Assembly (NCBI GenBank): GCA_003519585.1
Contig: DOWL01000096.1
Location: 439 to 12,753, forward strand
DNA from: Nocardioides sp.
Lineage (GTDB): Bacteria; Actinomycetota; Actinomycetes; Propionibacteriales; Nocardioidaceae
DNA: 12,315 nucleotides
Direction: 5' to 3'
A program made the position numbers and the translations under genes. Position 1 is the first letter of the stretch; every line of letters begins with the position of its first letter. The notes under the pieces are model-generated. The model made no database searches, was not told where the DNA came from, and was given only the letters and a program-made list of their open reading frames with translations. This document shows, piece after piece, positions 807-5,736 of the stretch.

Positions 807-1853
807 TCAGTCGCGCAGGACCGGCACCGCCGAGGTGGTCGTCGTGGGGTGCGAACGGGTGCCCCAGCGCTCGAACCGTTGGCCGCTCGCGAGCCCACCG
901 AGGTAGAAGCTGACCAGGGCGATGAACACGCCCGCGACGTCGTCGGCGATGTAGTGCCAACCGAAGTAGAGGGTGGCCACCGCGGTGATGGCGAAGTTGA
1001 CCCAGACCACGATCTTGAGCCACCTGATGTGGATCGTGAACTGCACCATCAGCGCCACCAGCATGGTGATGCCGCAGTGCAGGCTGGCGAACCCGGCCAC
1101 CGACTGGACGGCGTTGCTGAGCGACCCCGTGACGACGTAGTCGCGGGTGAAGTCGAGGGAGTCCATCAGCTGTTTGGACGGGGTGTTGGGCAGGTCGGTG
1201 TAGAGCTGCACGTAGCGGAAGCCGGGACCGAGCGTGGGCAGCGCGTAGTAGGAGAGCGTGCCGAGGGTCCAGGCCAGGCACTGCGAGGTCACGAACCAGT
1301 AGCCGTAGGACAGGTTGCGCACCCAGACGACCCACGCGGTCACCACCAGCGGCACCATCGGCAGGAACCACAGGTAGACGTAGGACAGCACGTGCGCCGC
1401 GATGCCGGTGCCGAGCACCGTGTGCAGCAGCGTGGCGGGGTCGTGGCCGAAGAGCAGCGCGTGGTCGATCAGGTGCAGCTCGCGGTCGTACTTCGTCTCG
1501 ATGACGAACGGCAGGAACGACTTGATGTTGCGGTAGGTGACGTAGACCACGTAGAAGCAGATGATCCCCAGCGCCACCAGGGTGATCCGCTCCTTGTTCC
1601 AGTGGGTGCGGAGCCGGTGCCGGACGACGGACGGGATCTGTCGCGGGTTGCGCCAGGAGTTCCAGATCGTCATCGGCAGCAGGTCGAGCAGCAGCGCGCC
1701 GAGGAGCAAGATCGGCAGCCGGATGTAGGACGGACCCAGGAAGCTGCCCTCGGGGTCGACGAGCCGCTTGTCGAGGACGATCGCCTCGACGATCGCCCAC
1801 GTGGCCATGCCCACGGCCAGGACGACCATGAGGACCCACGCGCGGCGATACAC
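807..1853 (-). CDS. PAP2-superfamily membrane phosphatase/transferase (Aur1/inositolphosphotransferase-like)
   Basis: The 348-residue integral-membrane protein has hydrophobic segments near residues 6-26, 43-62, 90-107, 145-180, 185-205, 262-275, 281-298 and 306-322. The PAP2 signature is present: GFASLHCG with His259 (C2 motif) and WHYIADDVAG with His300 and Asp304 (C3 motif). YALPTLGPG (203-211) matches the Pro-rich stretch before the catalytic half in the PAP2_3/Aur1-like subgroup. Members move or remove phosphate head groups on lipids, with the active site at the outer face of the membrane. The substrate here (phosphatidylinositol-type or polyprenyl phosphate) cannot be read from sequence. 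The GTG start at 1853 has no purine-rich ribosome binding site; the sequence just upstream is pyrimidine-rich. TAGACT lies seven bases before it, so a leaderless transcript is likely. An internal ATG at codon 9 is a weaker alternative. Confidence 0.85.
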   Translation of the reverse strand: MYRRAWVLMVVLAVGMATWAIVEAIVLDKRLVDPEGSFLGPSYIRLPILLLGALLLDLLPMTIWNSWRNPRQIPSVVRHRLRTHWNKERITLVALGIICFYVVYVTYRNIKSFLPFVIETKYDRELHLIDHALLFGHDPATLLHTVLGTGIAAHVLSYVYLWFLPMVPLVVTAWVVWVRNLSYGYWFVTSQCLAWTLGTLSYYALPTLGPGFRYVQLYTDLPNTPSKQLMDSLDFTRDYVVTGSLSNAVQSVAGFASLHCGITMLVALMVQFTIHIRWLKIVVWVNFAITAVATLYFGWHYIADDVAGVFIALVSFYLGGLASGQRFERWGTRSHPTTTTSAVPVLRD

Positions 1854-1866
1854 GGAGGGCAGTCTA
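1854..1866 (-). promoter_or_regulatory. Probable leaderless promoter (-10 TAGACT) of the PAP2 gene
   Basis: On the minus strand TAGACT (1866-1861) fits the actinobacterial -10 consensus TAnnnT. It ends seven bases before the GTG start at 1853, so transcription would begin at or next to the start codon. No ribosome binding site and no good -35 box are visible. The same arrangement (TAGTCT, six bases, ATG) occurs before the gene at 11697. Confidence 0.4.
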
Positions 1867-1897
1867 GAGATCCGCTCCGCACGGCAGGCGACCCAGT

Positions 1898-2908
1898 TCA
1901 GCCCCCGACCGGTGCCGTCCGGGTCACGTCCACCGCCAGCCGCACTGCCTCGCCGACCGCGGGGTGCTGGTCGAGAGGCGCCACCGCGTCCACCTCGCCC
2001 ACCCCCTCGACCTCCACGACCAGCCGCACCTGCTCCGGCGTCGTACGCGCCGCGGTCACCCGGCCCCGCAGCCCACCGTCCGCGTCGACCCGGAACGCAC
2101 TGCGGCGTACGGCGAGCGGGATAGTCCGTGACGTTTGTGTGGGCGGCTCGGCGGAATCACCCACACAAACGTCACGGACTATCCCGGCGGCGGGACCTTC
2201 GAGCACCCGCGCATAGCCGAGGAACAGGGCGGTCTCGGGATCGATGGGAGTCCGCCAGACCTCGTCGATGGGGCCCTGTTGGACGATCTCGCCGGCGCGC
2301 ATCACGGCCAGGCGATCGGCGACCGTGAAGGCCTCCTCGTGGTCGTGGGTGACCATCAGCGCAGTGATCCGCTTCTGGGTCAGGATCTGCCGCAGGTCGG
2401 CCGCCAACCGCTGGCGGAGCCCGGTGTCGAGGGACGACAGCGGTTCGTCCAGGAGCAGCAGCCGCGGGCGTACGGCGAGGCAGCGGGCCAGCGCGACCCG
2501 CTGCCGCTCGCCTCCCGAGAGGGTGGCGGGCAGCCGGTCGCCGTACCCCTCGAGGCCGACCAACTCCAGCAGCTCTTCGACGCGGGCCGCTGCTCCCGGG
2601 GTGCGCCGCAGCCGCAGGGCGTAGCCGATGTTGCGGGCCACGGTGAGGTGGTGGAACAGCTGCCCGTCCTGGAACATCAGCGCGAAGCCCCGCCTGTGCG
2701 TCGGGACCTCGGAGAAAGGTCGACTGTCTACGTAGATCTGACCCGAGGCGAGCGGCTCGAGGCCGGCCACGGCACGCAGCAGCGATGACTTCCCGCAACC
2801 CGACGGGCCGAGCACGGCAAGCACATCGCCGTCGGGCAGCTCGAGCGAGGCATGGCGTACGGCGGAGATGCCGTCGTAGGCCACCGAGACATCCGCGAGG
2901 CGCAACAT
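1898..2908 (-). CDS. thiQ: Thiamine ABC importer, ATP-binding subunit
   Basis: The cytoplasmic ATPase would power thiamine uptake by the ThiBPQ importer. From the ATG at 2908 it has 336 residues: Walker A GPSGCGKSS (34-42), Q-loop Gln80, signature LSGGE (130-134), Walker B LLLLDEP (150-156) with Glu155, D-loop SSLD, and switch His188. It is about 100 residues longer than enteric ThiQ (about 232). The extra part is an insertion (residues 241-264) encoded by a perfect DNA palindrome, followed by a TOBE-like C-terminal region (AVRRSAFRVD onward). The ATG overlaps the thiP stop in TGATG, indicating translational coupling; a GTG one codon upstream (2911) is an equally open start. Third gene of the thiB-thiP-thiQ operon, downstream of the TPP riboswitch. 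The thiamine assignment rests mainly on the ThiB homology and the riboswitch. Confidence 0.85.
   Translation of the reverse strand: MLRLADVSVAYDGISAVRHASLELPDGDVLAVLGPSGCGKSSLLRAVAGLEPLASGQIYVDSRPFSEVPTHRRGFALMFQDGQLFHHLTVARNIGYALRLRRTPGAAARVEELLELVGLEGYGDRLPATLSGGERQRVALARCLAVRPRLLLLDEPLSSLDTGLRQRLAADLRQILTQKRITALMVTHDHEEAFTVADRLAVMRAGEIVQQGPIDEVWRTPIDPETALFLGYARVLEGPAAGIVRDVCVGDSAEPPTQTSRTIPLAVRRSAFRVDADGGLRGRVTAARTTPEQVRLVVEVEGVGEVDAVAPLDQHPAVGEAVRLAVDVTRTAPVGG
2117..2186. repeat. Perfect 27-bp inverted repeat (palindromic element) inserted in frame within thiQ
   Basis: The left arm (2117-2143; core ATAGTCCGTGACGTTTGTG) and right arm (2160-2186) are exact reverse complements over 27 bases, separated by a 16-base loop. 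The element lies inside thiQ, after the nucleotide-binding domain and before the TOBE-like region, and adds about 24 codons (GIVRDVCVGDSAEPPTQTSR...) without a stop. Both strands stay open across it, and both give the peptide GIVRDVCVG because of the symmetry. No second copy, transposase or target duplication is visible in the window. There is no T-run after the stem, so it does not look like an ordinary intrinsic terminator. A REP/palindromic-element type repeat that tolerates insertion into coding DNA is the best reading. Confidence 0.85.
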
Positions 2909-4548
2909 CACACGGTCCCGAGCGAGCGGCCGCCGAACCGGTCGACCACGAGTACGACGATCGCAGTGGTGGCCGCGAGCACGACCGAGGCGGAGAGCGC
3001 CATGCCGAAGTTCTCGCCACCGGGACGGCCGATCAGCTGGTAGATCACCACCGGCAGCGTGGGGTGTTCGTCACGGGCGAGGAACGACGTCGCACCGAAC
3101 TCCCCCAGGGACACCGCGAACGCGAACCCCGCAGCGGCCACCAACGGCCGCCACACCAGCGGCAGGTCGACGGTCGCGAAGGCACGCAGCGGTCCGGCTC
3201 CGAGCGAGGCGGCCGCCTGGCGCTGCCGATCGTCGATGCCGGTGAGCACGGGCACCAGCGTGCGCACCACCAGCGGCAGTGCGACCAGGGCCTGCGCGAC
3301 CGGGACCAGCAACGGCGAGTCGCGCAGGCTCAGCGGCGGCCGGTCCAAGGTGATGAGGAAGCCGAAGCCGAGCGTCACCGCGGAGACGCCGAGCGGCAGC
3401 ATGAAGAAGCCGTCGAGCGCGCCGCGCAGCCGGCGCTCCCCTCCGGTGAGCGAGCGACGGCTGACCACGACCGAGATCAGGCCGCCGAGGAGCAGCGCCA
3501 TCCAGGTCGCGTCGACGGCGGTGCGCAGGGAGATCACCAGCGCGTCGGTGACCGGGACCAGCAACGCGTTGCCGTCGCCGACCGTGGTGAGCCGCTGATA
3601 GTTCGCGAGGGTCCACGCATCGTCGGCGCGCAGGGACCCGACCACGAGGGTCAGGATCGGCGCCGCTACGAGGGCCAGCACCAGCACGGTGAGCGCGACC
3701 GGGACGACATCCGGACGGCGGGGGCGACGCGGGCGCGCCGTACGCCGCTCCACGGTCGGGTCGGGCGAGGCGCGCAACCGTCCGACCAGAAGCAGCAGCG
3801 CGGTGATCGCCAGCAGTTGGAGGATGGACAGCGCGGCCGCCGCGGGCAGGTCGAGCAGTTGGGTGGTCAGCAGGTAGATCTCGGTCTCCACCGACGAGTA
3901 GCGCAGCCCACCCAGGGTGAGCACCACTCCGAACGACGTCGCGCAGAACAGGAAGACCACGCTCGCCGCACCGACCAGCGCGGGTCGCAGCGCGGGAAGC
4001 GTGACCGTGCGGAACACCTGCGCTGGACTGGCCCCCAGCGCCGCGGCCGCCTCGCCGGGTCGAGGGTCGAGCGACTCCCAGGCGATGCCGACGGCGCGGA
4101 TCACCACGGCCACGTTGAAGAAGGTGAGGCCCGCGATGATCGCCACCGGGGTCCCGTCGAGGCCCAGCGGACCGAGCGGACCCGAGTCGTTGATGAGCAA
4201 CCGGAAGGCCACCCCCACCACGACCGTGGGCAGCACGAACGGCACCAGCAGCAGCGCCCGCAGCACGAGCCGTCCCGGGAACGAGAGTCGATAGAGGACA
4301 TAGGCGGCAGGCAGACCGAGCAGCACGCTGGCGAGCGTCGCGAGCCCTGCCGACCAGACGGTGAACCACAGCACCCGGTGGGTGCGCGGGCGGCCGAGCA
4401 CCTCGACGACCCCGCCGGGATCGAACCGGCCGTCGACCACGAATCCGCGGCCGACCATCCCCGACACCGGCAAGACGAAGAAGACGGCGAGCACCAGCAC
4501 CGGCCCGAGCGCCAGCCCGGCCAGGGTGAGCAACCGCCGCGCGGTCAT
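2908..4548 (-). CDS. thiP: Thiamine ABC importer, fused two-domain permease
   Basis: The 546-residue inner-membrane permease would form the translocation path of the thiamine importer. It contains two tandem binding-protein-dependent permease domains, each with about six membrane segments. Each carries the cytoplasmic EAA loop that docks the ATPase: EAAAALGASPAQVFRTVTLP in the first half and QAAASLGAGPLRAFATVDLP in the second. A charged Arg/Pro-rich linker (RTARPRRPRRPD) separates the halves. Length and architecture match ThiP (E. coli about 536 residues) and related ferric-iron permeases of the FbpB type. The ATG at 4548, leading into MTARRLLTLAGLALG and the first membrane helix, is preferred over the 50-codon upstream extension, which runs through thiB in another frame and is low-complexity. 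It begins 19 bases after the thiB stop and ends overlapping the thiQ start (TGATG). Confidence 0.88.
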   Translation of the reverse strand: MTARRLLTLAGLALGPVLVLAVFFVLPVSGMVGRGFVVDGRFDPGGVVEVLGRPRTHRVLWFTVWSAGLATLASVLLGLPAAYVLYRLSFPGRLVLRALLLVPFVLPTVVVGVAFRLLINDSGPLGPLGLDGTPVAIIAGLTFFNVAVVIRAVGIAWESLDPRPGEAAAALGASPAQVFRTVTLPALRPALVGAASVVFLFCATSFGVVLTLGGLRYSSVETEIYLLTTQLLDLPAAAALSILQLLAITALLLLVGRLRASPDPTVERRTARPRRPRRPDVVPVALTVLVLALVAAPILTLVVGSLRADDAWTLANYQRLTTVGDGNALLVPVTDALVISLRTAVDATWMALLLGGLISVVVSRRSLTGGERRLRGALDGFFMLPLGVSAVTLGFGFLITLDRPPLSLRDSPLLVPVAQALVALPLVVRTLVPVLTGIDDRQRQAAASLGAGPLRAFATVDLPLVWRPLVAAAGFAFAVSLGEFGATSFLARDEHPTLPVVIYQLIGRPGGENFGMALSASVVLAATTAIVVLVVDRFGGRSLGTV

Positions 4549-4567
4549 GGGCTCGTCATCACCACAG

Positions 4568-5632
4568 TCATCGGGAGGTGACGTCACTCCAGTCGCGCAG
4601 CCACTCCTCGCGGTGCTCGGCGATGTCGGCCGGGTCGAGGGAGTAGGCGTCGTCGGGTTGCTTGGCGAAGCTCGCCCAGTCGGCGGGCAACGCGGCACCC
4701 GCGTCGACCGGGAACACGTACATCGCCTCGGGGAGGGCCTCCTGGAACGGCCGGCTCACCATGAAGTCCACCAGCGCCTGAGCGCCCTCGGGGTTGTCGG
4801 CGCCGGCCAGGACGCCGGCGTACTCGATCTGGCGGAAGCAGGTGTCGAGCAGCGCGCTGGTCGTGGTGCCGCCCTGGCCGTCGACGGTGAACGCCGGCGA
4901 GGAGTCGTAGGACAGCACGATGGGCCGGTCGCCGCCGCCTCCGCCCTGGGTGAAGTCGACCTCGTAGGCATCCGACCAGCCCTGGGTCAGTTCGGCGCCG
5001 TTGTCCATGAGCCGGGTCCAGTAGTCCTGCCAGCCGTCGTCGCCGTACTCCGCGATCGTGGCGAGCAGGAAGGCGAGCCCCGGCGAGCTGGTGGTCGCTC
5101 CCGGGGTCACGAACAGGTCGCGGTACGCCGGCTGGGTGAGGTCGTCGAGGGTCTGCGGCTCAGGCACCCCGTGGTCGGCGAACCAGGTGTCGTCGACGTT
5201 GACGCAGACGTTGCCGGTGTCGACGGGCGTCAGGTCGTGCTCGTCGTCACCGGGGAGCGCGTAGTCGGCGGCACCCTCCGGCAGCTTCGCGTCGTACGGC
5301 GCCAGCACGCCCTCGTCGATCGCCCTCGACCCGAAGGTGTTGTCGATGCCGAAGACCGCGTCGCCGGTCGGATCGTCCTTGGTCAGCACCAGCTTGTTGG
5401 TGAGCGCGCCCGCGTCGCCGGACGCCCGGATCACGAGGTCGTAGCCGCTCTCCTTCTCGAACTGCTGCTGCAGTTCGTCCGACATGACGAACGACTCGTG
5501 GGTCACCAACACCACCCGCTTGCCGCCGTCACCGCCTCCGTCGCTCCCATCGTCGTCTCCGCCCACCAGCGAGCAGGACGTGGTGACCAGTGCCGCCGCG
5601 ACGAGCGCAGCCGCGGTCGCAAGGTGCCGCAT
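4568..5632 (-). CDS. thiB: Thiamine-binding lipoprotein of ABC importer
   Basis: The 354-residue extracellular solute-binding protein has a type II signal: basic start, hydrophobic core, and a lipobox-like LVTTSC with Cys20 as the lipidation site. An Asp/Gly-rich tether (GGDDDGSDGGGDGG) follows. The mature domain matches ThiB-family landmarks in order: VVLVTHESFVMSDEL, GDAGALTNKL, GDAVFGIDN, SSPGLAFLL, TQGWSDAYEVDF, VLSYDSSPAF, and FMVSRPFQEALPEAMYVFPV near the C-terminus. It should capture thiamine or its phosphates outside the membrane and deliver them to ThiP. It is the first gene of the operon. The ATG at 5632 lies six bases after AGGGAG, which is part of the 3' end of the TPP riboswitch, so its translation is probably directly riboswitch-gated. 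Confidence 0.92.
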   Translation of the reverse strand: MRHLATAAALVAAALVTTSCSLVGGDDDGSDGGGDGGKRVVLVTHESFVMSDELQQQFEKESGYDLVIRASGDAGALTNKLVLTKDDPTGDAVFGIDNTFGSRAIDEGVLAPYDAKLPEGAADYALPGDDEHDLTPVDTGNVCVNVDDTWFADHGVPEPQTLDDLTQPAYRDLFVTPGATTSSPGLAFLLATIAEYGDDGWQDYWTRLMDNGAELTQGWSDAYEVDFTQGGGGGDRPIVLSYDSSPAFTVDGQGGTTTSALLDTCFRQIEYAGVLAGADNPEGAQALVDFMVSRPFQEALPEAMYVFPVDAGAALPADWASFAKQPDDAYSLDPADIAEHREEWLRDWSDVTSR

Positions 5633-5636
5633 CTGT

Positions 5637-5721
5637 GACTCCCTTCGCCGGTGCTAACCGGAGCAGGTTCATAGGGTCTGCGGCTTTTCCGCACTCTCAG
5701 CGCCGTCGGCGCTCCCCTGTC
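5637..5721 (-). promoter_or_regulatory. TPP (thiamine pyrophosphate) riboswitch, THI element
   Basis: Read on the minus strand, all hallmark THI-box elements appear in order: ACAGGGGAGC; the P2 stem GCGCC/GGCGC; the conserved CTGAGA (5700-5695); a P3 hairpin TGCGG-AAAAG-CCGCA; ACCCTATGAACCTG (5677-5664); the P4/P5 arm CCGG-TTAGCA-CCGG; and GAAGGGAG. The last element contains the AGGGAG ribosome binding site of thiB, six bases before its ATG. Ligand binding to such elements represses thiamine uptake and synthesis genes. Here the overlap with the ribosome binding site points to translational control, since no separate terminator hairpin with a T-run is seen before thiB. The P1 stem looks short. 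Confidence 0.95.
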
Positions 5722-5724
5722 GTG

Positions 5725-5736
5725 ACGACCACAGTA
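5725..5736 (-). promoter_or_regulatory. Probable -10 box (TACTGT) for the thiBPQ operon
   Basis: TACTGT at 5736-5731 on the minus strand fits TAnnnT and would start transcription at about 5724, just before the conserved 5' part of the riboswitch. A convincing -35 hexamer is not seen, as is common in GC-rich actinobacteria. Confidence 0.4.

Follow-up and report, generated by a model that had tools for sequence, protein, structure and literature searches.

A perfect hairpin lies in frame within the thiQ-like gene of a thiamine-uptake operon, and it probably belongs to a family of short palindromic DNA elements, unnamed so far, which occurs in Nocardioides-like actinobacteria and has repeatedly entered, been replaced in and been lost from the linker between the ATPase and TOBE regions of ThiQ. 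The letters of this hairpin are rare, while its predicted arrangement is recurrent among homologues. The window, which is the whole stretch of 12,315 nucleotides that was analysed, carries the operon on its minus strand in the order TPP riboswitch, thiB, thiP and thiQ, followed by a PAP2-family gene. The features of the operon and of the hairpin are as follows.

5623 to 5728, minus strand: TPP riboswitch that leads the operon (64.9 bits, gathering threshold 54.3)
4568 to 5632, minus strand: thiB-like thiamine-binding protein (TIGR01254, 219.4 bits against a cut-off of 93.4)
2908 to 4638, minus strand: thiP-like permease, 576 residues from the start used (models score below their cut-offs)
1898 to 2911, minus strand: thiQ-like ABC ATPase gene of 337 residues that carries the element (thiQ models score below their cut-offs)
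2160 to 2186, minus strand: first palindrome arm when read along thiQ (arm 1), 27 nucleotides, encoding (G)IVRDVCVG
2144 to 2159, minus strand: loop of 16 nucleotides, inverted relative to the back-translated loops of homologues P0001 and P0002
2117 to 2143, minus strand: second palindrome arm when read along thiQ (arm 2), 27 nucleotides, encoding PTQTSRTIP
1925 to 2113, minus strand: TOBE_2 match (residues 267-329), downstream of the element

The identity of thiQ is based on the operon and on the names of its homologues, and the riboswitch was the sole match in an Rfam scan of the window at gathering thresholds. In the homologue P0124, the ThiQ tail is fused to the start of a PAP2 protein much like the gene downstream of thiQ in the window (807-2911), and because of this layout the thiQ-PAP2 order is found again in a relative. 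Elsewhere in the window, a metallo-beta-lactamase-like hydrolase, named by reading its sequence, is apparently split between two overlapping minus-strand frames, with the first half in frame 9762-9019 and the second in frame 9679-8684; it seems to be a pseudogene or a sequencing error.

Direct reading and pairing confirmed the geometry described in the initial annotation, that is, two 27-nucleotide arms (2117-2143 and 2160-2186) with 100% complementarity around a 16-nucleotide loop. Its placement of the hairpin in frame between the ATPase and TOBE regions also held, as the element covers about residues 242-265 of ThiQ, with the ABC ATPase match (residues 19-158) on the N-terminal side and the TOBE_2 match on the C-terminal side, and both strands do encode GIVRDVCVG. 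Folding of the sense (minus) strand gives -63 kcal/mol, compared to -29.07 +/- 3.2 kcal/mol for 200 dinucleotide shuffles, none of which reached this value. An intrinsic terminator was ruled out, as the GC-rich stem is followed on its 3' side by CTCGCCGTACGCCG in the sense direction and not by a T-run. A search of the window for the arm core GATAGTCCGTGAC with up to three mismatches gave four matches against 3.96 expected, and the two exact matches are the arms themselves.

The composition of the insert differs from that of its host gene. Third-position GC is 0.57 in the insert compared to 0.89 in the remainder of thiQ, and the insert contains an ATA codon that is otherwise unused across the nine genes counted. 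Third-position GC as low as that of the insert occurs in 27 of 2577 codon windows, which is a rough guide given that the count includes the sig and mbl genes in wrong or broken frames. The low third-position GC and the ATA codon fit DNA that is not codon-adapted. In a structure model of ThiQ with a mean pLDDT of 86.4, residues 239-250 form a helix (mean pLDDT of 91 over residues 241-250), and residues 251-260 are modelled with low confidence (mean pLDDT of 61).

In order to compare the linker among relatives, the best 120 of 7994 proteins matching the ThiQ of the window were taken, among which the named proteins are from Nocardioides. Later searches added P0121-P0124 (42-residue query) and P0125-P0127 (chain of insert peptides). 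From 124 proteins and the window's own, 121 linkers were cut between fixed anchors, with four rows having no anchor, and all comparisons among relatives were back-translated from protein. Linkers of at least 31 residues make up 66 of the 121, and the others have 6-29 residues. The linker of the window has 32 residues compared to 18 or 23 in the commonest insert-free linkers between the same anchors, and the net gain is therefore about 9-14 codons, fewer than the 24 or so originally estimated. The nearest homologue by tree path in the set, P0016, is insert-free, with 87% identity over 310 columns. Within the 35-residue class, the outer residues IVRD..S.TIPP stand at the same place across loop families, and other insert types apparently use a shifted frame and have another 5' boundary. 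The large sequence change across homologues bears out the earlier suggestion that the protein tolerates the insert. In P0123, the ThiQ sequence is lost directly after the insert.

Several individual linkers are of separate interest. Three more distant ThiQ proteins (P0093, P0099 and P0120) carry a palindromic insert in the same linker, apparently in another frame, with ..HPKVTDYP.. in two and ..HPKVTDHP.. in one; the in-frame TGA expected from arm 1 is apparently altered, and pairing is significant in two of the three. The short linkers of P0050, P0044 and P0071 resemble hairpins from which the centre or one arm has been deleted, and none of the three scores as a palindrome. The public protein P0041 is identical to the ThiQ of the window up to the palindrome (..IVRD) and then continues with EIGRASCRERG, which we take to be a translation of Illumina adapter. 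The contig deposited for P0041 apparently includes adapter sequence and breaks off where the hairpin lies.

The arms of these inserts were compared by counting how many of the 24 stem pairs are possible under the best choice of codons in 51 distinct 21-residue inserts. Own arms allow 20.82 of 24 pairs compared to 18.38 for swapped arms, and none of 2000 permutations reached the own value, although the permutations disregard relatedness and the signal is inflated to that extent. Matched changes in both arms are seen, for example, in IVRD..SRTI, IVPD..SGTI and IVTD..SVTI. In five of the 51 inserts the average swapped arm pairs better than the insert's own, and own arms are the best or equal-best partner in only 29% of rows. 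By back-translation, the arms co-vary between homologues as an average and not a universal effect. A register-free test, with a threshold of at most five of 100 shuffles as good, indicated that 48 of the 66 long linkers have the potential to encode a palindrome, compared to two of the 27 shorter linkers scored, the 28 linkers with fewer than 12 core residues having been left unscored. No significant palindrome was found by this test in the remaining 18 long linkers, which we read as decayed or overlooked. Arms that stay complementary while their sequence changes, as in inverted repeats subject to template switching, are thus seen at the protein level in the set as a whole. Because the arms co-vary across homologues, their perfect match in the window need not mean recent arrival, one of the two readings offered in the initial annotation. 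The initial annotation had also named, as a pattern that would refute it, an insert conserved as protein on diverged arms; here the encoded peptide varies and the two arms change in step.

Both strands of the element are open in one frame, and therefore a reverse-complemented loop is also readable. Among 54 inserts (1431 pairs), with a match defined as within three nucleotide changes, loops match in the sense direction in 75 pairs and as reverse complements in 55, of which 44 differ by six changes or more when both are read in sense. With shuffled inserts, the mean was 0.1 inverted matches and the maximum was one in 100 rounds. The largest loop family is divided between the two orientations (seven and eight members), and the second largest, with eight inserts, occurs in one orientation only. 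The closest matches of the window's loop are P0002 (one change inverted, three not inverted) and P0001 (two changes inverted, five not inverted). Spacer inversion between relatives, a further feature of template-switched inverted repeats, is therefore present at the protein level, and re-insertion both ways is also compatible with it.

Comparison of near-identical genes points to rapid turnover of the insert. The initial annotation had asked for orthologues without the insert, and these exist: P0072 is insert-free and is 98.4% identical outside the linker to P0020, which carries an insert. Unlike loops occur in the near-identical genes P0002/P0005 (97.4%), P0010/P0019 (97.1%) and P0009/P0034 (96.1%). 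The 13 pairs with at least 96% identity comprise four in which both are insert-free, three that differ in presence and six in which both carry an insert. By reading, three of these six are alike and three unlike; a script counted two and four, because P0019 and P0035 differ in length. Some close ThiQ pairs retain the same insert. As judged from these alignments, insert presence and loop family change between genes that are 96-98% identical, and loop flipping alone cannot yield unlike loops in near-identical genes. Across 12 hand-chosen close pairs, differences within 12 residues of the junction affect 10 of 288 positions compared to 142 of 3426 elsewhere; they are no denser beside the junction, and there is therefore no sign of a wider recombination tract. 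Replacement of the insert is thus tight.

A 97-row tree built without the linker (61 rows with the insert, 31 without and five uncounted) requires 21 changes of presence or absence, and still 11 once branches with bootstrap below 95 are collapsed; a quick tree of 117 rows gave 24. Loop family and orientation require 16 changes over 31 rows compared to a shuffled mean of 20.98. With weak branches collapsed, 13 changes are required against a shuffled mean of 15.53 and minimum of 12, and because this value lies within the shuffle range the loops track the tree weakly.

Copies outside thiQ were sought with a chain of eight insert peptides as query, which identified 12 proteins among 2748 candidates, 11 of them ThiQ or fragments of ThiQ. 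The remaining one, P0127, is an ORF of 253 residues that has no ThiQ flanks and contains GIVRDVCVGQSAIRPTQMSRTIPP. Its search E-value is 5.8, and 19 of 23 residues equal the insert of the window. Its own arms allow 23 of 24 pairs, a value reached by two of 1000 shuffles of the second arm. P0127 has no Pfam match, lies on a 5.6-kb contig that might be misassembled, and gives the impression of a spurious ORF that runs over the end of a gene. That it sits at the end of a different gene is no more than suggested by seven of seven residues shared with the antisense reading of one of the genes in the window (E 0.028). P0127 is the only direct sign of dispersal; dispersal beyond thiQ is likely on this comparison, but thinly shown. 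Every protein recovered by the 42-residue search (34 of 72 candidates) includes a ThiQ part, and copies that share the outer residues alone would fall below its threshold. The dispersed copies predicted at the outset are thus represented by one similar element outside thiQ, and the exact core was dispersed in none of the collections searched, so that the original reading as a mobile palindromic element is partly supported.

Nucleotide searches gave matches at chance level only. The exact 18-mer core had one chance match in GTDB contigs (L001), a single arm without a partner within the 251 bases read, and none in IMG/VR. Three exact and relaxed hairpin patterns had zero matches in IMG/VR. The pattern ATAGTCNNNGAC..GTCNNNGACTAT matched five IMG/VR stretches, with the NNN positions complementary in none of the five, and GGGATAGTCC..GGACTATCCC matched one (L015, on a contig of 39% GC), where pairing beyond the searched ends is barely above chance. 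No ThiQ was confirmed in IMG/VR. The 70-bp palindrome gave one chance-level record each in plasmids and phages, and the peptide chain gave 19 weak plasmid records with E-values of 0.9 and up and less than 60% identity. A hairpin of like size with ATAGTC..GACTAT was absent from the first 50 kb of the plasmid record examined, presumably Nocardioides pNOCA01 (the other 258 kb were left out). In literature text, the 12-base arm core matched one paper, on plant viruses. Titles and opening parts of abstracts on palindromic repeats combined with in-frame insertion, actinobacteria, Nocardioides, REP, MITE, thiQ or TOBE describe no such element, and the word Nocardioides is absent from a REP survey (PMC12306157, in excerpt).

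We favor a scenario in which a family of such elements enters one tolerant spot, the ATPase-TOBE linker of ThiQ. The element is close to symmetric and each of its strands has one open frame, so that the reading frame survives whichever way round it lies. Replacement would come about either through transposition in trans or through an ectopic copy made from a different member. No target duplication or transposase was seen in the material compared. After entry, template switching during replication may re-match the arms and flip the loop, a plausible role, and the element could be lost from the linker without breaking the host protein. The two halves of this mechanism are each backed separately, by Rickettsia palindromic elements in ORFs (PMC10969869, in excerpt) and by arm homogenization and spacer inversion in yeast (PMC8604942, in excerpt). 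It is rather doubtful that the element targets this one position of one gene, making the ThiQ linker a hypervariable natural cassette in which one whole hairpin takes the place of another. If this were true, symmetric arms with one open frame on both strands would allow insertion and flipping either way with the host protein intact.

The main rival, which has perhaps one chance in a few of being correct, is a single ancient insertion into thiQ followed by change in place only, through template switching, deletions and recombination of alleles between strains, with no mobility. Template switching is reported to homogenize arms and invert spacers in yeast coding DNA (PMC8604942, in excerpt) and to create and maintain stems (PMC8794818, in excerpt). 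The outer residues recurring across loop families of the 35-residue class agree with one origin, and short linkers such as those of P0050 and P0044 resemble deletion remnants. This rival accounts for the arms and the flips but not for swapped families or P0127. Unlike loop families sit in genes 96-97% identical, where flipping is insufficient, and the flanks show no excess of differences that would mark a recombination tract (10/288 compared to 142/3426). Furthermore, a similar element occurs outside ThiQ, and other types apparently lie in shifted frames with different 5' boundaries.

Selection for nucleic-acid structure in the thi operon mRNA, for instance a site of RNase III action or of pausing by which ThiQ is tuned, with co-variation as compensatory evolution, is unlikely. 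The highly stable fold, the co-varying arms and the riboswitch-led operon would suit it; however, many close homologues have no hairpin, presence changes at least 11 times, significant pairing is missing from 18 of the 66 long linkers and the stem has no T-run after it. A protein module under selection in ThiQ, with the palindrome as by-product, is very unlikely and was dropped as an explanation. A long insert does occupy the open ThiQ frame in 66 of 121 linkers (a count without the anchorless rows and partly a result of construction), and residues 239-250 are modelled as a helix, with a mean pLDDT of 91 over 241-250. Nevertheless, the sequence turns over, to the point that some inserts are reverse-complement readings of one another, the codons are rare (ATA being otherwise unused in the nine genes counted), residues 251-260 are of low confidence, and P0123 loses ThiQ right after its insert. 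An assembly artefact in the window is scarcely credible, since P0041, a second record of the same gene, does break at the palindrome with an adapter-like tail but comparable inserts occur in dozens of homologues from other contigs.

If the favored scenario of repeated entry, replacement and loss is right, it opens to testing a long-standing question, that of what keeps perfect hairpins in genes: selection, mobility or correction by template switching. Caution is required, as co-variation alone is no proof of a functional RNA.

Among known systems, REPs and REPINs with their RAYT transposase are short hairpins, suspected to be mobile and sometimes found within genes (PMC3733652 and PMC3116915, in excerpt). 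Their stems are of 5-13 bp (GTAG) or 8-9 bp (CGTC) with a GTAG/CGTC motif at one end (PMC3733652, in excerpt). Membership in these two superfamilies was ruled out, as the stem here is of 27 bp and neither motif is found in the 14-nucleotide flanks on either strand. In Nematomorpha mitochondria, long perfect inverted repeats lie inside working genes and their arms encode conserved protein regions (PMC6649704, in excerpt), whereas many ThiQ homologues are without the insert. Quasipalindrome template switching at coding inverted repeats in yeast homogenizes arms, flips the spacer and changes several residues at once, with spacers of 2-5 bp and arms of 10-16 bp in ten tabulated cases (PMC8604942, in excerpt). 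The thiQ element is similar in its matched arms and flipped spacer and differs in its 16-bp loop and swapped loop families. Finally, Rickettsia palindromic elements are palindromic DNA placed in frame in protein genes, read as peptide and apparently tolerated, and were first reported as about 150 bp long in many unrelated genes (PMC10969869, in excerpt). The thiQ element is likewise an in-frame palindromic insertion in an ORF. However, it is about 70 bp long, occurs repeatedly at one gene site in high-GC actinobacteria (Nocardioides homologues) and not in Rickettsia, and shows flipped loops and co-varying arms; unrelated genes are represented by one non-ThiQ ORF (P0127, E 5.8) in a search of limited sensitivity. 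If the proposed scenario is correct, actinobacteria would have their own counterpart of the Rickettsia coding palindromes, one whose record at a single site is richer, with dozens of differing inserts, arms that co-vary and loops that lie either way round.
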